A DNA stretch of 64,000 bases, taken from a virus. The position numbers were made by a program, and so were the translations under genes. The stretch is from positions 1 through 64,000 of IMG/VR virus record IMGVR_UViG_3300020159_001814; one strand, written 5' to 3'. Under the pieces are notes generated by a model, which was not told where the DNA came from, ran no database searches, and worked only from the letters and a program-made list of their open reading frames with translations. This document shows positions 3,617 through 32,795 of the stretch, piece after piece (the stretch's first letter is position 1; every line of letters starts with the position of its first letter).

Positions 3617-3647
3617 CAAAGATAGAAAAAAAAATTTAATGCACAAA
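3617..3647 (-). promoter_or_regulatory. Bacteroidota-type promoter
   Basis: TTTG (3644-3647), a 19-bp spacer, and TATCTTTG (3617-3624) on the minus strand, 4 bp before the ATG of 3199-3612. The expected start site is at or next to the start codon. Confidence 0.7.
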
Positions 3648-3679
3648 AAAAATGGATGTAAAATTTTATCTACATCCAT
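3645..3679 (-). terminator. Terminator of the giant RNA
   Basis: ATGGATGTA (3652-3660) pairs perfectly with TACATCCAT (3671-3679), followed on the minus strand by a run of T. It lies directly upstream of the 3199-3612 promoter and ends whatever is transcribed from 4657-4687. Confidence 0.85.
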
Positions 3680-4650
3680 CAATTTTTTTCCTTATAAGAT
3701 TTTAAACCTAAAAATAAAAACCTGAGATTACAGTTTTTTGTGAGAACCTTTAGAGTCATTATTGTTTCTACTCTTATCCACTTCCTTTTGAGAAGTATTC
3801 CTCAGTGACGATTATTTAGGTGAATCACTCCTTAAGGTATCAATTACTCTCTCATTACTCAACTCTCTTCGAGGATGCCTCCCCAACTATTCCTTGCGGG
3901 ATTAGAGGTTTTTGGTAAGAATGTAGTTCAACTTGCGGTATCACTACGCAACGAACAGCTCGTTACTATGTAGTCACCTTTCATTGACACCTGACGGACA
4001 CTTTTGCTTTCTAGTTATAAATGTTACCTTATTAACATAAAAGTTTTTGTGTCGTGGATTGTCGAAGTAGTGGTCCGTCTTTCAGCTTCGTTATCTTTTG
4101 AACAACGAAATACCAAACTACTCCGTGAAATGTCCCCATTTCCATATTTCAAGACTACTTCGAGATCTAACCCTTGGTGGGGTTCAATCAAGGTTAGTAA
4201 CAGCACCACCTGTACACCAACATACCTTTCGGTTTTAAGTATCCTATCTTATTGGAACACGCAATAATAAAATTGGATAATCTTATTTTTTGCAATATTC
4301 CTACGGGTTATTCCTATTAGTGTTCCCACTTCAAACTGACAACCCACATTGCCAGTTCGTCTAACCACTTTCCCTACAGCGTTGCCCTCGGTACTAAAGG
4401 TTAAACGGTATCCCGCTTGTGTACTCGATCTCGACAAATCCGAAGATTCACCAAGACGCAAATCAGTTACACTTCTGACTCACTTTATCCCACTTTCGTG
4501 GTTTATTTTAATGGACCATACACGGCCCAATGACTTAATTTAGTTTCACACATAAAGAAAGGGAGGTGTTAATTCGCTTCTTTTTAATTGTGACGACCGT
4601 TTCAGTCGGATTTAGATTTTCAAAGAACGTTTCAGGACTTTTCCTGATTT
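3650..4650 (-). ncRNA. Candidate giant structured non-coding RNA, about 1 kb
   Basis: About 1.05 kb without a convincing gene on either strand, with more G and C than its surroundings, a promoter at the right end and a terminator at the left end. On the minus strand many helices are visible: a 9-bp stem AACTGGCAA/TTGTCAGTT (4334-4342 with 4349-4357); a 10-bp long-range stem (4062-4071 with 4154-4163) enclosing a 6-bp hairpin (4087-4092 with 4104-4109); ATGTTA/TAACAT at 4021-4038; AACGA/TCGTT at 3950-3964; and two GAAA tetraloop hairpins, ACCGAAAGGT and CCACGAAAGTGG. Size, ornate folding, phage context and closeness to tRNAs recall the GOLLD and ROOL classes, but I could not match their consensus. 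It is not RNase P, tmRNA or rRNA by inspection. Confidence 0.7.
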
Positions 4651-4656
4651 GTTTTA

Positions 4657-4687
4657 CAAAGTTAAGTCTTTTTTTTCAATTAGACAA
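4657..4687 (-). promoter_or_regulatory. Promoter of the giant RNA
   Basis: TTG (4685-4687), a 20-bp spacer and TAACTTTG (4657-4664) on the minus strand. The start would be near 4650. The first RNA element would be the hairpin TCAGGA/TCCTGA near 4632-4647. Confidence 0.65.
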
Positions 4688-4705
4688 GTACCTTGTGAAC
4701 TTTTT

Positions 4706-5011: not shown

Positions 5012-5419
5012 TCATATTTTTTTATAAAAAATTTGAAGTTTTTTGTTCTTTTTATAATATGTAACGTCAAACTTATCCCAAAAAAATTTAGAATCATTAT
5101 TTTCTAAAAACCTATAAGCTAAAAAATAATCTATTTTCATTTTTTTATAAATTTTGAATGTTTCATCAATTAGTAGTTTACCATACCCCATTCTTCTGTA
5201 TTTTTCTTTAGTAACGACATTTGTGGTGATTAAACAATTTTTATAATTAAATAAAATATCTTCGTTTAATAATTCAGCAAAATCTGATTGTATAATATCA
5301 ATAAATTCATAATTAGTTAAATTTAAAGAACAAATTTTTTCTTCATTATAAACATATACTTCTAACCCCTGTGGTGTGTTAATATCACCAGAAACACCTA
5401 AATTATATTTTAATGACAT
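5012..5419 (-). CDS. GNAT-family acetyltransferase-like protein, 135 aa
   Basis: Residues 65-90 (NVVTKEKYRRMGYGKLLIDE) fit GNAT motif A: a beta strand, then R-R-M-G-Y-G, the acetyl-CoA pyrophosphate-binding loop, then a helix. The following YFLAYRFLENNDSKFFWDKF resembles motif B with the usual N and F residues. It would transfer an acetyl group to an amine; the substrate is unknown. Length is close to the family minimum of about 140. Divergent from the DUF192 gene, sharing an 11-bp start region. Confidence 0.75.
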   Translation of the reverse strand: MSLKYNLGVSGDINTPQGLEVYVYNEEKICSLNLTNYEFIDIIQSDFAELLNEDILFNYKNCLITTNVVTKEKYRRMGYGKLLIDETFKIYKKMKIDYFLAYRFLENNDSKFFWDKFDVTYYKKNKKLQIFYKKI

Positions 5420-5426
5420 ATTTATA
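5419..5426 (+). promoter_or_regulatory. TATTTATA upstream motif
   Basis: Coding strand TATTTATATTATATG: the motif is 4 bp before the ATG of the plus-strand gene at 5431. It is the plus-strand example showing that the motif follows gene orientation. Confidence 0.45.
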
Positions 5427-5430
5427 TTAT

Positions 5431-5787
5431 ATGAATATCAGTATAAAAGAAAACACATTTAAATGTAGGGTTTGTGCTACACCATTATCAATTCAAGATG
5501 GGATGAAAAATAAAACATTTAACATGAGTTTTAATGGTATGTTTTTTATTTTACCAAATAAAGGTAAACAAAAGTTTTGGATGTACGAATGTATCACCCC
5601 ACTTGATATTTTATTCATAGATGGTGACACAATAACAGAAGTACATAATGATTGTTTACCGTGTGATGTTATAGAAGCTTGTGAAAACTACGGTGGGTAT
5701 GGTGATCACGCATTAGAATTACCAGGCGGTACATGTCAATCATTGGGTATAATATCAGGGGACAAGATAAAAATCGGATTACCTTAA
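5431..5787 (+). CDS. DUF192 family protein, 118 aa
   Basis: The sequence follows the DUF192 pattern: residues near 12-25 (CRVCATPLSIQDGMKNKTF), then the central phenylalanine-rich strands (MFFILPNKGKQKFWMYECIT, PLDILFIDGDTITEVH) and the end LELPGGTCQSLGIISGDKIK. DUF192 is a small beta-barrel family of unknown biochemical role, found in bacteria and some large phages. I start at ATG 5431, just after a TATTTATA motif. Its 3' end overlaps the DHH gene on the other strand by 4 bp. Confidence 0.88.
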   Translation: MNISIKENTFKCRVCATPLSIQDGMKNKTFNMSFNGMFFILPNKGKQKFWMYECITPLDILFIDGDTITEVHNDCLPCDVIEACENYGGYGDHALELPGGTCQSLGIISGDKIKIGLP

Positions 5788-7295
5788 CCTTTTTGTATTT
5801 TACTATTTAATATTTCAACAAACTTTTCTTTTATATCTCTTGTTAGTTCTGTTGTTCCTCTTCCTTGTTTTGGGTCGGCAAGTGCTTCAACATCGATACC
5901 TTCTCTTTTCATTCCACTAATAGCCGCTTGAATTTGTTTTTCTGAAAGTTTTCTAAATCTTAAAAGTTTTTGTTTAATATCTTGTATGAATGAATTTGAC
6001 CCTTCGTAAAATGCAATAGGTATTGCATCTGCAGGTAAATCTTTTGTATATGGTTTGTCATAACCACTATAAACAAACCCGATTCCGGTTATATTCGTAA
6101 TACACTTGTGACCTCCTGAATTTGAAACCAAAAAATCATAAGCACTTATTGTATTTGTTTTTGGGTTATACGAAGGCATTTCCCCATATAAAGCATCCAT
6201 ATCTTTTTGTGTAAAACCAACAGAATCTTTTGTTGCCTTTTTTTCTGCAACTCTTTTAATTATTTTAAATGGAAGTATTACTTGTTCAAGTTCAGGTTTA
6301 AAACTTAGAAGAACTTGGTCTTTAATTTTTCCTAAATCAACCCCTTTAAGTGCCCTATCTTCTTTGTATGGGTTACAAGATGCTTGAACTAATCCAACAG
6401 GTGCCCCGATTCCTGTTACTAAAAAGTCCGCATCAGGATTTAACTCAAATGGTGTATATCTATCATATGAACCTTTTTTCATATGACCAAGACCAAACTG
6501 ATGAAGTACACCGCCTTCTTTTTGGATTACCCCTTCTTGTGATCTATCATCAAGATACCTTTCTTGATTTTTTTGCATTGTTTCTACTGAAGCATAACCT
6601 TGATCTTTTGCAATTTTTGTTATTGTATTATATAGATTTTCTAATGATGGTTCACAGTTCATTACAAGGTATTCAAGTAAATCCCTACCATCGACATTAT
6701 TATTTTTATAAGCTAAAAGAAGTTTATTAACAACAAGACCCATCATCATTTTATTTCTTCTAACACTTTTATCTTTGTCATACTTGAAAACAAAATTCAT
6801 TACCATTTTTGGTGTGATATCGTTTGCGGTAAAGTTTGCAGAATCGACTGTCGATACGACATATAAATCTTCGTCTTTGAATAAATCTTTTGGTGAAATT
6901 GTTTGTGAAATTGTTTCAACATTAGATCTTGAATGTTTGAAGCTGGTTTTTGTGTCTTTTTCAACCCCAACTTGTGAATCGTGGTGGTCTGTATGAATTT
7001 CAAACATTGGTTTTCCGTGTGCAAAATCAACAAGAACCGGCATAATCTCACCACTTCCATCCGGTTTTTTAACTGCCCATTCTTTTTCACCATATTGGAT
7101 TATTTCACAATCAACAACTTTAAACCCTTGGTTTTCAAGGTATTTTTTCATTGCAATTGCGGTTGTAACCCCATCCAAATCTTGGTGAAAGTATATTTTT
7201 GCCTTCTTATATCTTTTAAGAAGTTGATTTATATCCCTAATTCCAGATTCTTTAATTAGTTGTTTGTATTGACTTTCAGTTATAATAATTTTCAT
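5784..7295 (-). CDS. DHH-type phosphoesterase with capsid-targeting-like N-terminus, 503 aa
   Basis: The N-terminus MKIIITESQYKQLIKES is a helix ending in I-K-E-S, like the start of 2103-2402. It is followed by DHH signatures: HQDLDGVTTAIAMKKYL (D39, D41, G42), VLVDFAHG, and IHTDHHDSQVG, with the Asp-His-His metal motif. A C-terminal SGGHKCITNITGIGF near residue 395 resembles the DHHA1 GGH motif. DHH proteins are Mn-dependent phosphodiesterases acting on nucleic acid ends or nucleotides (RecJ, NrnA types). Family length is 320-570. The N-terminal peptide suggests that it may travel in the virion. Preceded by a TATTTATA motif. Confidence 0.85.
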   Translation of the reverse strand: MKIIITESQYKQLIKESGIRDINQLLKRYKKAKIYFHQDLDGVTTAIAMKKYLENQGFKVVDCEIIQYGEKEWAVKKPDGSGEIMPVLVDFAHGKPMFEIHTDHHDSQVGVEKDTKTSFKHSRSNVETISQTISPKDLFKDEDLYVVSTVDSANFTANDITPKMVMNFVFKYDKDKSVRRNKMMMGLVVNKLLLAYKNNNVDGRDLLEYLVMNCEPSLENLYNTITKIAKDQGYASVETMQKNQERYLDDRSQEGVIQKEGGVLHQFGLGHMKKGSYDRYTPFELNPDADFLVTGIGAPVGLVQASCNPYKEDRALKGVDLGKIKDQVLLSFKPELEQVILPFKIIKRVAEKKATKDSVGFTQKDMDALYGEMPSYNPKTNTISAYDFLVSNSGGHKCITNITGIGFVYSGYDKPYTKDLPADAIPIAFYEGSNSFIQDIKQKLLRFRKLSEKQIQAAISGMKREGIDVEALADPKQGRGTTELTRDIKEKFVEILNSKIQKG

Positions 7296-7309: not shown

Positions 7310-7346
7310 TAAAAAAATAAAAAATCCAAGAGTTAATCTTGGATTT
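7310..7346 (-). terminator. Rho-independent terminator overlapping the MTase stop
   Basis: ATCCAAG (7324-7330) pairs with CTTGGAT (7338-7344). The minus strand continues with a T run. The stem begins inside the last codons of the methyltransferase gene. Confidence 0.85.
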
Positions 7347-8184
7347 CTTCTGATACTGTTTTTAAATTTTTAAAGTATTCAATTCTTGTGTTTGCAACTT
7401 CTGTATAATTTGGTGATAATTCTATCCCTAACCACCTTCTTTCAAGTATTTCGGCAGCTACCAAACTTGTACCTGATCCAGCAAATGGGTCTAAAACTAC
7501 ATCGTTCTTGTAGGATAAAATCTTAATCGCCTTGGTTGGTATGTCCATGGAGAAAGTTGCCTTGGTGAGTGATTTAGTGTCTGCGAAATAATTCCACTGA
7601 CCAAACACAAGTTCCATAAATTCTTTTTTATCTTCTTCATTATAAACAACTTTCTTTTTGAATGTTCCATCTTCTTGTTCTATATCTGTTGGCGTTCCTT
7701 TCCATTGTGGTTCACCTTTAATCTTTTTTATGTGGACTTTTTTATATGCTAATATAACACATTCCTTTGGGTTATAAATATAAGGACTAGATGGTGACAT
7801 CCATGATCCCCATGCGGTAGTCTTACTACGATGAGGTGATTGTTCTTCTAAATCCACAATACCAAAGAACCCAAAACCAATTTCTTTCATTATCTGATAC
7901 ATTTCAGATACAAAAAAGATTCTACCACCTTTTTTTTGTCTATTAATTTCATAAGGGATATTAAGAGCAATTCTTCCATCATCTTTTAATACTCTGTACG
8001 CTTCAGTAAGCCAGTTTTTTGCAAAAACAACATATTCATCAAATGGTACATCATCTTCATGTACGTCATAAGCAATCCCAACCCCATAGGGTGGTGATGT
8101 CACAATTAAATCAACTTCACCTTCAGGAAGTGTTTTCATCACTTCTACACAATCCCCATTTATTATTTTTCCTGTTTCTATCAT
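7333..8184 (-). CDS. DNA methyltransferase, TSPPY type (N4-cytosine or N6-adenine), 283 aa
   Basis: Motif IV TSPPYG is at residues 29-34 and the AdoMet-binding motif I DPFAGSGT at about 232-239. This order (catalytic motif first) marks the beta class. TSPPY is commoner in N4-cytosine enzymes, but adenine specificity cannot be excluded. The start ATG is at 8182-8184, overlapping the stop of the DUF3310 gene by ATGA, which suggests translational coupling. No restriction gene is adjacent. It probably modifies phage DNA against host restriction. Confidence 0.9.
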   Translation of the reverse strand: MIETGKIINGDCVEVMKTLPEGEVDLIVTSPPYGVGIAYDVHEDDVPFDEYVVFAKNWLTEAYRVLKDDGRIALNIPYEINRQKKGGRIFFVSEMYQIMKEIGFGFFGIVDLEEQSPHRSKTTAWGSWMSPSSPYIYNPKECVILAYKKVHIKKIKGEPQWKGTPTDIEQEDGTFKKKVVYNEEDKKEFMELVFGQWNYFADTKSLTKATFSMDIPTKAIKILSYKNDVVLDPFAGSGTSLVAAEILERRWLGIELSPNYTEVANTRIEYFKNLKTVSEEIQD

Positions 8185-8399
8185 CTTTTTTCTATTGTTT
8201 GAATGTGGTGTTGCAAATACCATAACGCCTTTTTAAGGTCTTGTAGTTCTTTATCCGTATCTTTTTTACCGGCCCTTGATATATACTTCACAGTGTTACC
8301 TAACGAAAATCCTAAATTCCAAGCATCAATTACTTTGATTGCTTCATATGGATTGTCTTCACCCCCATAATGTTCAGGGTGGTTTACTTGTTCGCTCAT
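8181..8399 (-). CDS. DUF3310 family protein, 72 aa
   Basis: MSEQVNHPEHYGGEDNPYEA, then LGNTVKYISRAGKK and LQDLKKALWYLQHHI, matches the DUF3310 pattern (NHP.HY, GN..KY..R...K, DL.KA..YL). The family is common in phages and often described as SaV-like; its exact role is unsettled. It overlaps both neighbours by ATGA, so three genes are coupled. Confidence 0.9.
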   Translation of the reverse strand: MSEQVNHPEHYGGEDNPYEAIKVIDAWNLGFSLGNTVKYISRAGKKDTDKELQDLKKALWYLQHHIQTIEKR

Positions 8400-8602
8400 T
8401 CAATATTTTCTTTTATGTAGTTAATTATTTCTTCTTCAGTTTTACCTTGATTGAACATTCTATATACTTCCCTTGAAAAATCATCTGTGGTATACACCGC
8501 ATCAGCATCCAAATACTTCATTATCCAATCAATATTTTGAATAATGTGATTTTTACTTAGAAACCTCTTGTTGAACCCCATTTTTTTGGTTTTTAATTTC
8601 AA
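8396..8602 (-). CDS. Hypothetical protein, 68 aa
   Basis: Product ends FSREVYRMFNQGKTEEEIIN, an acidic helical tail. The start may be ATG 8600-8602 or the internal ATG 8579-8581 (MGFNKRFLSK), which reduces overlap with 8553-8693. Overlaps the DUF3310 gene by 4 bp. No family recognised. Confidence 0.7.
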   Translation of the reverse strand: MKLKTKKMGFNKRFLSKNHIIQNIDWIMKYLDADAVYTTDDFSREVYRMFNQGKTEEEIINYIKENIE

Positions 8603-12967: not shown

Positions 12968-14686
12968 TTAAGGTAACTCATCAATAAAATTTAAATCCTC
13001 AAAAAGATTGTAATCATCCATATAATATTGTAAAGGATTATCATTTGTTTCTGAATCCCACGTTGGTACTAAATTAAATGTTTTTTCATTTTTATCGTCA
13101 AAATGTGCAATACTACTAACCGTTTTACCGTTACGGTATTTTTTAACCATGGTCGGTAATTTAATAATTTCTTTACTGTAAAGATAGTTTGCAAATTCAT
13201 TTAATTCGTTAATAGGTGTTATCCATTCATTTGTAAGTCCTTTATTAAACTTACCTAATTTTTGTATAATTACTAACTGATTTCTTCTGAACTGGAATTC
13301 TACCGTTGCTCTTTCATTACCATTAACACTACCCTTCCTTAAAGAAATTATAAGTGATTGAGCCTTTTCGCTATACGTTCTAACACAGTTGTGCTGATGT
13401 GATGATTCCATTTCATATTCACCGGTGGTTGTTAGTAAAACAGGGTAATATGTAATACCTTCTGAATAAATTTCTTTTTGAATTAAGTAAGCATCTTCCC
13501 CATAATTTCTTGTCACGTCACCAGTTTTATATGACTGTAGTAATGATGACCACTCACTATGTTCCATTACATATTCATCATATGTAGTTGCAGTTACTTT
13601 AACATATTCTCCATATTTTTTTAACTGTTCTTTAAACATAATATGATCACTAAATGAATTTAAAAATTCATAAACCGTACTTGTATTTATAATACTAATA
13701 AAATTTTCTTTTTCATTTCTACTTAAATCCCCAACCATATCATCATTAAGATAATATCCATTTACGTAAATGGATTGTTTTTTATCAGTAAGTAAAGAAT
13801 TGTCATTTATTTTGTTAAATAAATCTATACCAAAAACCTTATAGCATTGTAATATAGGATCTATTTCTATGTTTTCATACTTATTAAGTAAGTTTCTAAT
13901 TTTCGTCCCTTTTAGTTCGTGTTTTTTCATAAACCAAGTAACTATATTATTACCAAAATTTTTTATTTCTTTTTTTGGTGTATAATATGACGCAAACTTT
14001 TCAAAGGCATTAGGGTACTTCACACCTGAAATTTCAAGAAATAGTTGGTAATATTTTTTTCTGATGTTATCGGAATCGGAATCAATGTTAAGGTTTAGTC
14101 TTTCAATAATTCTATCTAAAAAAATATTTAAACATTTTTTAGTTAATTTTTTTTCAGAAACTATCGGATATTCATTTTGATTTTCATTTTTTTCAAAGTT
14201 CTCTATTTTTCTAATTACTTCAATAGCATTGATGTCAGTTTTATTAATACTCATAACCCCACCAATCTTTCTTTTCTTTTTAAGGTTAAGTGTCCCTGAA
14301 TAAAATAACTTTCTTTTGAAATTAAATGTAAGGTAATCGATTACCCTTCTAACCTTAAAATACTTTTTACCGGCATCTCTTGATGATACGTAGGTATAAA
14401 CTTTTAATGCAATCTTACTCTCGTTTTCTTCAATAACAAGAGTTCTTTTTACCATAAATGTAGATGCTAAGGGATTTCCATAGTTTTTAACAAAACTTTC
14501 TTCCCCTTCTTCTTTTTTTAAGAATTTAAATTTACCTTGTTTAGGTATATGTTCGGTAGGATAGATACCAAATAAATCATCATCTTCTTCGTAGTCTTTT
14601 TTAGTTACTATTTCATTAAAATCTTGGTGGATGTCGGTATCGTACTTTTTAATTTCGTCCTTAAATAGGACAGTCATATCTGACAT
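12968..14686 (-). CDS. PcfJ-domain protein, 572 aa
   Basis: The region around residues 420-520 (EMESSHQHNCVRTYSEKAQS, then ATVEFQFRRNQLVIIQKLGK) fits the PcfJ-like domain: E...HNCV..Y, a basic strand, then ATVEF and Q.LG.FN. PcfJ was first noted on a conjugative plasmid; related proteins occur in phages, and the activity is unknown. The N-terminal 400 residues are Lys-rich and helical. It heads the PcfJ, 115-aa, glutaredoxin gene string. Confidence 0.8.
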   Translation of the reverse strand: MSDMTVLFKDEIKKYDTDIHQDFNEIVTKKDYEEDDDLFGIYPTEHIPKQGKFKFLKKEEGEESFVKNYGNPLASTFMVKRTLVIEENESKIALKVYTYVSSRDAGKKYFKVRRVIDYLTFNFKRKLFYSGTLNLKKKRKIGGVMSINKTDINAIEVIRKIENFEKNENQNEYPIVSEKKLTKKCLNIFLDRIIERLNLNIDSDSDNIRKKYYQLFLEISGVKYPNAFEKFASYYTPKKEIKNFGNNIVTWFMKKHELKGTKIRNLLNKYENIEIDPILQCYKVFGIDLFNKINDNSLLTDKKQSIYVNGYYLNDDMVGDLSRNEKENFISIINTSTVYEFLNSFSDHIMFKEQLKKYGEYVKVTATTYDEYVMEHSEWSSLLQSYKTGDVTRNYGEDAYLIQKEIYSEGITYYPVLLTTTGEYEMESSHQHNCVRTYSEKAQSLIISLRKGSVNGNERATVEFQFRRNQLVIIQKLGKFNKGLTNEWITPINELNEFANYLYSKEIIKLPTMVKKYRNGKTVSSIAHFDDKNEKTFNLVPTWDSETNDNPLQYYMDDYNLFEDLNFIDELP

Positions 14687-30082: not shown

Positions 30083-32416
30083 TTATTGGTAAACTTTTGA
30101 TATGTTATCTTCTTTTTTAATTTTAACAACACTGTCAGCCCATTGATTCACCATTGGGTTATGGGTTATAAGGAAAATCTTTTCAAAATATTCTTTTATT
30201 TTTACAAAAAATTCTGAAACCATTTCCAAGTTTTCATTTGAAATCTTACCGAAAACCTCATCGAAAACAATTACGTTTGGTTTAGGTAATGAACATATTT
30301 TACTTAGTACCGACCTTAAAGCTAAAGAAGCTATTGTTCTTTCGTAACCAGATCCTGATGACATTAGTTTTTCAATACCTGTTCCATTATCTATCATTAA
30401 GAATTCGACTTCATTCTTATCAGATATTCTAATTTCTAACTTGAAGTAAGAACTATCTTCCATTAATCTTTGAAGTTCTGAATTAATCAATGGCATCATT
30501 GTCTTCATTATAATTTTAGATATACCATTTTTACCGTAAGCCTCCAAATACATTTTATGTATTTTTTCTTTTTCTTGTTCTTCGGCAATTTTTATAATGT
30601 TATTTAAGTTTGTTTTAATTTTTTCTTCTAAAGATTTAACTGAATAATCATCACTATTAATTTGTGTTTGTTTTTGTGTCTTTTGTCTTTCTAAATCTTC
30701 AATTCTTAAATTAGCCTTAATTAACATACTATCTATATGTTCATTTTCTTTTATCTTATCAAGCATCTTATCGTATTCAGTAAGTTTTGTCTGAAGTCCT
30801 TGTATTTTTAACTGATAGTTTTCAATTGTCGCATCGTACTTTTCTTTAATAAGTTTGTTTTTTTCATATTCATCAAAATCCTTTTTCAACCTGACAAACG
30901 TTTGTTCTATGCCTGATAAAACCTGCATTGTGGTCCAAACATTGTCTTTTTGCATGATATAACCATCAAGTTCAGATATTTTTTGTTGTGTAATACTAGC
31001 ATTCATTAAATTGATCCCACAATGTTCACATTTGATTCCACCCTCAACAGAACTCTTTAGTTTCTCAACTTCTTCTATTTTTGTTTCAATCTGAATTAAC
31101 TCTTTATTAAGTCTTGAATATTCTTCTTTAGTTTTATCGTGTTCATCCTCTTTGTAGTATTCTTTTGGTTCAACTACTTTAAGTTCATTAAGTTTTAATT
31201 TTGTTTGTTCAATCTGATACTCGTGTCCTTCAATATCTTGTTTAACCTGGCTTGGGTTTAATCTACTTAACTCAACGTCAATATCTGTGTGTTTTTTAGA
31301 AATCATGTCGTCGCGATAATCCCTACCTTTTGTTAGATTTGTATCAATATTTACCAATTCAAGTCCATATGATTCAATATTAGACTTTAACTCGGTAATT
31401 TTTGTTTCGTTGTTTTCGTTATCTGTTTTTAATTGTTCGGTATTGTAAATGTTAGATAACATTGATTTTGAAAAGTCGGAATATATTAATTTTGCGGCTT
31501 CTTCTTTTCTTTTTAAAAACTCTAACCCCATAAAACGAGTTAGTACCTGTCCTCTAGCAGTTGGTTTTGCGTCAATCAATTCTTCAAGATTTGTTGCCGT
31601 TGTAAGTATGGTCATTAGGAAATCATCTTTAGTTCCAATAGATTCTTTAATGAATTTTTCAGTTTCCCTTCTTTGTTCACCAGTAAAGTTTTGTAAAGTC
31701 CCATCAGCCAATTTTTTAAAAAAGTCTAATTCCGTTTTAACATTCCATTCACCTTTTTTAGACATTTTTCTTTCTATATTCCTAACGATAATATATTCTT
31801 CACCGTCGATAACAATTTCACCTTTTACAGTAACTTTATCTTTATCTGTAAACCGGTTAAAAATTTCTTCAGCTTTAGTTGTTTTTGTTGTTTCATTAAA
31901 GAATAAAAACAATAGTAAATCAACAGATAATACTGTCTTACCACCAAAATTTGGCGGGTTAGATTCAATAACAGTCAAACCATTACATTTTTCAAAATCT
32001 ATTTTTTGGTTTTCTCCGTAAGATAAAAAGTTAGAAAATTCAATGTTTTTTATATACCATTTTTTAAAAACAGTCGTTTCTGTTTCATTTTCTTGCATTT
32101 TATTTTCAACCATTTTATTATGTGATAAAATAGTATCTAAATAGTTTTCATATCCTTTACTTACCAAGTATTGTTTTAATAAATCGACTTGGTAGTTGGT
32201 ATCCATAATGTTTACCGATACGTCAACAGTTTGTTCCGTTTCTTCCTGTGTTGTTTTTACTTTGGTAATAACATTAACATTGGTTGTGTTATATTTTTTT
32301 TGGAAGTAGTGTTTTACACTTTTAATTCTGTCTTGTGTAAAATTCTCATTAATATCTTCCCAAACAACTTGGATGTACGGGTTTTCAAACTTAGTAAAGT
32401 TTATTTCTTTTGTCAT
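30083..32416 (-). CDS. SbcC/Rad50-like recombination nuclease subunit (T4 gp46 type), 777 aa
   Basis: Start taken at ATG 32414-32416 (MTKEINFTKFENPYIQVVWE), after the stop of 32436-32795. About 120 N-terminal residues precede the ATPase head, an extension not usual in gp46. Walker A is ESNPPNFGGKTVLSV (GGKT at 158-161), a zinc hook CEHCG sits between long coiled coils, the ABC signature is SSGSGYERTIASLALR and Walker B is VIVFDEVFG. With gp47 it resects DNA ends for recombination-dependent replication and host DNA breakdown. Confidence 0.93.
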   Translation of the reverse strand: MTKEINFTKFENPYIQVVWEDINENFTQDRIKSVKHYFQKKYNTTNVNVITKVKTTQEETEQTVDVSVNIMDTNYQVDLLKQYLVSKGYENYLDTILSHNKMVENKMQENETETTVFKKWYIKNIEFSNFLSYGENQKIDFEKCNGLTVIESNPPNFGGKTVLSVDLLLFLFFNETTKTTKAEEIFNRFTDKDKVTVKGEIVIDGEEYIIVRNIERKMSKKGEWNVKTELDFFKKLADGTLQNFTGEQRRETEKFIKESIGTKDDFLMTILTTATNLEELIDAKPTARGQVLTRFMGLEFLKRKEEAAKLIYSDFSKSMLSNIYNTEQLKTDNENNETKITELKSNIESYGLELVNIDTNLTKGRDYRDDMISKKHTDIDVELSRLNPSQVKQDIEGHEYQIEQTKLKLNELKVVEPKEYYKEDEHDKTKEEYSRLNKELIQIETKIEEVEKLKSSVEGGIKCEHCGINLMNASITQQKISELDGYIMQKDNVWTTMQVLSGIEQTFVRLKKDFDEYEKNKLIKEKYDATIENYQLKIQGLQTKLTEYDKMLDKIKENEHIDSMLIKANLRIEDLERQKTQKQTQINSDDYSVKSLEEKIKTNLNNIIKIAEEQEKEKIHKMYLEAYGKNGISKIIMKTMMPLINSELQRLMEDSSYFKLEIRISDKNEVEFLMIDNGTGIEKLMSSGSGYERTIASLALRSVLSKICSLPKPNVIVFDEVFGKISNENLEMVSEFFVKIKEYFEKIFLITHNPMVNQWADSVVKIKKEDNISKVYQ

Positions 32417-32435
32417 GTTTGTATAATTAAATGGT

Positions 32436-32795
32436 TTACTCTCCTCGAACAGATTCAGTTGATTCTTGTCCTTCCTGTGATTTTTCTTCATCTAAGTTTA
32501 TGTCTAATATATTTGCAATATTATTAATGTTTGACTGAATACCATCAACATCTATATTGTCTTCGTTACTTAATTTTCCTTCTAAAATATTAAGTTCATC
32601 AATAACGTTATCAAGTTTATCTTCACCATCTAAAAGTCCTGTTTCACCAGACATTGCTTCGAATTTTTGTTTCATAGCATCCATTTGTTCTTGGAATGCT
32701 TCTTGCCAAACTTTTTGCATTCTTTTTTCTTGTACTTTCAAGTTAGCGTTTCTTTTCGCCACTTTTGCTCTATGAGCCTTTGCCGCTTTTCCCAT
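32436..32795 (-). CDS. Hypothetical coiled-coil protein, 119 aa
   Basis: MGKAAKAHRAKVAKRNANLK: a highly basic helix of 30 residues, then a coiled segment with EKRMQKVWQEAFQEQMD, then an acidic tail. The charge split suggests nucleic acid or protein binding. Lies between gp46-like and the 10-bp tandem repeat. Function unknown. Confidence 0.75.
   Translation of the reverse strand: MGKAAKAHRAKVAKRNANLKVQEKRMQKVWQEAFQEQMDAMKQKFEAMSGETGLLDGEDKLDNVIDELNILEGKLSNEDNIDVDGIQSNINNIANILDINLDEEKSQEGQESTESVRGE

Follow-up and report, generated by a model that had tools for sequence, protein, structure and literature searches.

A full-length GOLLD RNA in a metagenomic phage fragment has a leader resembling those of Bacteroidota rRNA operons

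Results

The window analyzed here is a stretch of 64,000 nucleotides (positions 1 to 64,000) of IMG/VR virus record IMGVR_UViG_3300020159_001814, a metagenomic phage fragment of 77,792 bases. An earlier note, made from the sequence alone, had pointed to a region of about 1 kb near a tRNA cluster that lacked a convincing gene, was raised in G+C and was framed by a promoter and a terminator both pointing left, and had proposed a giant structured RNA of the GOLLD or ROOL type or of a new class. The covariance-model search of Rfam that the note had suggested matched the minus strand at 3719–4125 to RF02032 (GOLLD) with 323 bits and an E value of 9.9e-92, covering the model completely (model 1–416) and exceeding its gathering score of 150; no match to ROOL (RF03087) was returned within the window. 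The locus is a full-length GOLLD RNA, so the giant-RNA proposal is borne out, and the match to RF02032 makes it a further member of a known family and not a new class. The record holds one GOLLD copy, and ten tRNA genes lie on the same strand at 126–1838, a location near tRNAs that is characteristic of phage GOLLD. The Rfam model covers only the 3′ domain of GOLLD; the whole core spans ~820 nt (4537–3712). The rise in G+C is confirmed, at 39.5% for the core versus 30.7% for the window (98.7th percentile of same-size windows), and folding of the minus strand at 3675–4655 scores z = −4.05 against shuffled sequence, versus −0.85 for the plus strand. The features of the locus, in the expected order of transcription, are as follows.

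4657–4688, minus strand: putative Bacteroidota-type promoter CTTG-N20-TAACTTTG (−33/−7); 3 in the window versus 0.40 expected
4632–4647, minus strand: leader hairpin TCAGGA-AAAG-TCCTGA, just upstream of the boxA-like motif, in the boxB-like position of rRNA leaders
4620–4628, minus strand: boxA-like GTTCTTTGA, conserved upstream of the core in relatives
4538–4619, minus strand: variable 5′ leader between boxA and core (10–104 nt among relatives)
4127–4537, minus strand: GOLLD 5′ domain, ~410 nt; 60 co-linear homologues, covariation
4519–4523, minus strand: pseudoknot strand GUGUA, pairing with 4423–4419; standard pairs in 40/40 at all five positions
4334–4357, minus strand: 9-bp hairpin whose loop 4347–4342 pairs with 4059–4054; covariation
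4200–4211, minus strand: near-invariant CAGGTGGTGCTG at the end of the 5′ domain, used as a search pattern
3719–4125, minus strand: GOLLD 3′ domain, RF02032 match
4010–4053, minus strand: variable A/U-rich linker, aligning poorly among relatives
4006–4007, minus strand: dinucleotide GC, pairing with loop 3936–3935 in 40/40; corresponds to bridge B7
3893–3899, minus strand: loop CCGCAAG with palindromic GC, at the putative position of L21a (bridge B8) by position arithmetic
3712–3734, minus strand: 3′-terminal hairpin (P27), then a U-run; loop 3728–3725 pairs with 3779–3776 in 40/40
3651–3680, minus strand: putative intrinsic terminator, a 12-pair stem then a T-run

The flanking open reading frames match Pfam DUF192, DNA methylase, PcfJ and, weakly, GNAT/LRR families, and PHROGs entries for an SbcC-like protein and one virion protein. 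The DUF192 (COG1430) protein is encoded on the plus strand at 5413–5787 among mostly minus-strand phage genes; the N6/N4 DNA methylase lies at 7333–8223, the PcfJ-like protein at 12968–14686 and the SbcC-like nuclease subunit at 30083–32491.

Relatives were drawn from two pattern scans of viral contigs, two uncultured phages of 635–642 kb and Acinetobacter phages, and candidate loci were filtered with separate 5′-domain and 3′-domain profiles (nhmmer), which removed many chance matches. Sixty loci carry both domains in order and are mostly full-length, with a core of ~790–890 nt in nearly all of them (the outliers are L004, 717 nt, and L010, 1,000 nt). Identity to the window runs from ~82% for the nearest relatives to 48% for the farthest, and the alignment comprises 40 sequences of <90% pairwise identity. 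The 5′ domain, which lies outside the Rfam model, is common to 59 relatives and covaries. The two large uncultured phages (642 and 635 kb) carry full-length GOLLD adjoining tRNAs in unannotated records (L002:4943–5349 and L003:4388–4793). A tRNA-Met (CAT) sits directly beside GOLLD, upstream or downstream, in many relatives (L007, L016, L018, L021, L023, L065, L111 and others) and is often the sole tRNA of the relative’s locus; the window has no adjoining tRNA-Met. L130, from a further contig scan for GOLLD, was a chance match that Rfam does not recognize.

RNAalifold applied to the alignment yielded 185 pairs, of which 156 show one or more double changes, and the addition of pseudoknots after a mutual-information scan resulted in a 207-pair structure. 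This structure is 96.1% paired across the alignment, a value that falls to 37–44% when partners are slid by 1–3 columns, and 173 of the 207 pairs have changed on both sides. Reading frames of 87, 70 and 64 aa do exist within the region, which could suggest a protein-coding region with incidental folding; however, they are open in 0, 1 and 7 of 39 homologues, respectively, and length differences among homologues are often not multiples of three. The coding reading is refuted, because the frames are lost while the base pairs covary, and we give it next to no weight.

Individual helices named in the earlier note fared differently. The 9-bp stem (4334–4342 with 4349–4357) has each position paired in 35–39 of 40 relatives, with up to five pair types, and the contact made by its loop is a six-pair helix (36–39/40) that ties the 5′ and 3′ domains together. 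Both GAAA tetraloops lie within conserved, covarying hairpins. A 10-bp long-range stem (4062–4071 with 4154–4163) did not hold in the proposed register, which is paired in only 15–39 of 40; instead, its 3′ strand on the minus strand (4063–4071) pairs with 4117–4125 in 38–40 of 40, and the other strand (4154–4163) pairs with 4238–4245. The idea of this stem as a conformational switch was ruled out because the stem is not conserved. Within the pseudoknot of the 5′ domain, position 4521–4421 takes four pair types.

The env-38 GOLLD RNA (833 nt) self-assembles as a hollow 14-mer cage, in which the 5′ domain forms the cap and the disordered linker lies inside (PMC12286853). With the env-38 stems mapped by description, the pairing of 4007–4006 with 3936–3935 appears to fit the published intermolecular bridge B7 (L20 × J13/15), and that of 3779–3776 with 3728–3725 the published L27 × J24/26 contact. 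The first occurs as GC:GC, GG:CC, UC:GA and GA:UC, with three pair types at one position. Loop 3899–3893 carries GC in the window and CG in L002, L003, L063, L075, L129 and others; a GC/CG switch is reported for bridge B8, and by position arithmetic from the same paper the loop would be L21a (PMC12286853).

Two other readings bear on these contacts. One is that the cage is a by-product and that the monomer is the working form of the RNA, with ribosomes or a phage protein as examples of what it might bind: ribosomes bound GOLLD in a pull-down (as cited in PMC12286853), and particles were made by a Lactobacillus prophage without GOLLD (as cited in PMC7567579). However, the bridge-B7 residues covary, pairing in 40/40 sequences, and env-38 stays a 14-mer down to nanomolar concentration (PMC12286853), and we consider a purely monomeric role unlikely. 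The other is that the window holds a degenerate, unexpressed copy, as might be supposed for a metagenomic phage fragment. Against this, neither the helices nor the kissing contact show damage, the promoter and the terminator are likewise intact, and the 3′ domain scores among the best of the loci scanned, which renders degeneration highly improbable.

The promoter, hairpin, boxA-like motif and terminator are present as sequence features from which their functions are predicted. Both signals of the earlier note were recovered on the minus strand: CTTG-N20-TAACTTTG at 4688–4657, from which the transcript would be expected to start near 4650–4655, and a terminator stem of 12 pairs at 3680–3651 followed by T8. 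Most relatives have a promoter of this kind ahead of the core; counted by cluster (<75% identity), the form TTG-N-TAnnTTTG precedes the core in 12 of 21, as opposed to 5.8% of background windows. The 3′-terminal hairpin at 3712–3734 and its U-run may itself terminate, and TTTT occurs near the 3′ end in 31 of 40 homologues.

Between promoter and core, the window leader carries the hairpin and then GTTCTTTGAAAA, which contains boxA (4628–4620). The hairpin stem shows compensated sequence changes in L111, L128, L063, L075 and L048, and a hairpin precedes boxA in most relatives, being missing in a minority (e.g. L038, L035 and L009). The order promoter–hairpin–boxA fits rRNA leaders, since boxB precedes boxA there (PMC6614801). 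In the 300 nt that precede the core, 42 of 49 loci have exact GTTCTTTGA, GTTCTTTAA or a close form. Counted by cluster (<75% identity), 16 of 21 have a boxA ahead of the core, versus 1.3% of background windows, and the opposite strand gives 0/21; the resulting p of ~1e-26 assumes independent clusters, and phage relatives are independent only in part. Among the five clusters missing the exact word, three have one-mismatch forms and two (L002 and L004) have none; one-mismatch loci are L063, L075, L129, L072 and L010. By eye, no clear boxC was seen, Bacteroidota boxC having no definition here.

Does the word match the rRNA leaders of the host? Ten 16S leaders were drawn from Bacteroidota records of a plasmid collection, and the exact boxA word lies between promoter and 16S in seven of them (Parabacteroides, Hymenobacter, Prevotella, Phocaeicola, Persicobacter, Segatella and Aureibacter). 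The Flammeovirga leader has a variant boxA, and exact GTTCTTTGA is missing from two flavobacterial leaders, those of Flavobacterium limnophilum (none clear) and Chryseobacterium fluminis (ATCATTGAAA). In DSS3_MAL1, presumably a Roseobacter phage judging from its name, a tRNA–GOLLD–tmRNA array (GOLLD 160 bits) begins with CGCTCTTTGACAATTTGG, and 16S leaders of its likely host group read GCTCTTTGACATTG (Ruegeria) and GCTCTTTGAAATTG (Sulfitobacter); because of this resemblance, we count the case as a host-matched switch. The DSS3_MAL1 GOLLD (L141:2570–3033) is unannotated and has an Arg tRNA inside its linker and a tmRNA downstream.

Away from GOLLD, the boxA word is 20-fold denser in the 150 nt preceding phage tRNA and tmRNA genes (18 matches in 22.5 kb versus 40 in 1,000 kb elsewhere). 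These include AGTTCTTTGACATATTGG, which lies between tRNA-Thr and tRNA-Gln inside the tRNA cluster of the window (1147–1139, minus strand); boxA-like words recur within tRNA arrays of relatives L012, L066, L027, L106 and L128. Such a word lies immediately upstream of phage tmRNA at L008:8030 (tmRNA 8044–8414) and L106:6194 (tmRNA 5818–6180).

An alternative hypothesis is that GTTCTTTGA is no Nus signal and that GOLLD RNA itself includes it as a conserved 5′ segment, or that it is a DNA element used at the promoter. In most relatives it does lie close to the 5′ end, on the strand that is transcribed. However, its spacing varies (10–104 nt to the core, 15–145 nt to the promoter), the motif also precedes tmRNA and tRNAs without GOLLD, and it takes the form of the rRNA boxA of the host clade, all of which speaks against the alternative and leaves it with a small share of the probability.

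Discussion

Family membership, the division into 5′ and 3′ domains and covariation are established by the analysis. The reading that we favor, with a probability of roughly three in four, is that this full-length GOLLD gene belongs to a Bacteroidota phage and is organized in the manner of a host rRNA operon, with Nus factors assisting transcription and the RNA forming a cage. We infer the Nus action, the 14-mer assembly and the task of the cage, and the cage itself is a projection from env-38 by homology.

The rRNA-like start of the gene suggests a way in which the phage could produce an RNA of this size and have it fold. In E. coli, a Nus/SuhB complex on boxA counters Rho and aids rRNA folding and maturation (PMC4807359, PMC6614801), and in Legionella, addition of GTTCTTTAAAA to a CRISPR locus raised precursor RNA ~tenfold (PMC7862264). 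Based on the boxA features and this literature, we propose that GOLLD is made by a Nus-modified polymerase from an rRNA-type leader. RNA polymerase would start near 4650 at the Bacteroidota promoter and transcribe leftward, making the rRNA-type leader first, with the boxB-like hairpin followed by boxA. Host NusB and ribosomal protein S10 (NusE) would be expected to associate with boxA and with the polymerase, which could then pass Rho and internal hairpins and, during folding of the 820-nt RNA, hold the 5′ part close to the exit channel. Both domains would adopt their env-38 folds, kissing loops of the B7 and B8 type and A-minor contacts would assemble copies into a hollow cage that encloses the linker, and transcription would terminate at 3651–3680. 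The cage would most likely serve late infection and translation, beside the phage tRNAs, and would do so by keeping hold of the linker or of a partner, RNA or particle. Levels of GOLLD go up during lysis (PMC12286853), but one prophage GOLLD proved dispensable for phage production (as cited in PMC7567579).

More broadly, we lean slightly toward a model in which the phage operons for GOLLD, tRNA arrays and tmRNA imitate the host rRNA leader, such that a host-type boxA recruits the Nus complex as a co-transcriptional folding aid for an RNA cage, and the output of GOLLD would be in competition with host rRNA synthesis or adjusted to it.

We know of no function established for GOLLD since its discovery, and to our knowledge its cages have been observed only for in vitro transcripts. 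An rRNA-type boxA matching that of the host, placed in the GOLLD leader, would tie the RNA concretely to host machinery for a first time: it predicts which host proteins meet the nascent RNA, it would account for the escape from Rho and the folding of an untranslated 1-kb transcript, and a boxA point mutation would separate expression and folding from structure. The 40-sequence covariation alignment spans both domains, including the 5′ domain absent from the Rfam model. The rRNA-like leader, which the earlier note does not mention, seems to be the new part of the finding and appears to be unreported for GOLLD: a literature search, whose coverage excluded most subscription papers, returned no report of boxA on GOLLD, and the word boxA is absent from PMC12286853. 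A survey of boxA targets states that non-coding RNAs were left out of consideration (PMC5725501).

How does the locus compare with known systems? With RF02032 and env-38 it shares a complete 3′ domain, a core of ~820 nt, a variable linker and nearby tRNA genes. It also has the separate, less conserved 5′ domain (known at ~420 nt), likened by place and size, as well as a B7-type kissing contact, an L22 pseudoknot and a terminal loop × J24/26 contact, matched by description. Unlike GOLLD as described, it has its own putative Bacteroidota promoter and an rRNA-like hairpin–boxA leader, and it has neither a tRNA in the linker nor an adjoining tRNA-Met. ROOL (RF03087) is likewise a giant RNA of phages, is encoded close to tRNAs and assembles as a cage, but the window has no ROOL sequence match. 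In the one ROOL tested (L143), boxA was not found upstream, unlike in GOLLD; that locus, of an abundant L. salivarius lncRNA (L143:28264–28806), is ROOL by 130 bits.

The closest parallel for the gene start is the rRNA operon leader (nut-like boxB–boxA–boxC), in which promoter, hairpin and boxA also precede a long structured non-coding RNA, and the boxA word is identical to that of most of the Bacteroidota 16S leaders compared. The window leader differs in that it precedes a phage RNA and has no recognized boxC, and its Nus binding is predicted. CRISPR arrays can have an upstream boxA as well (Stringer et al., as cited in PMC7862264), again on a long non-coding transcript outside rRNA, and the Legionella Lens CRISPR element GTTCTTTAAAA nearly equals the window boxA word; the CRISPR boxA serves crRNA production, whereas that of the window heads a structured phage RNA.
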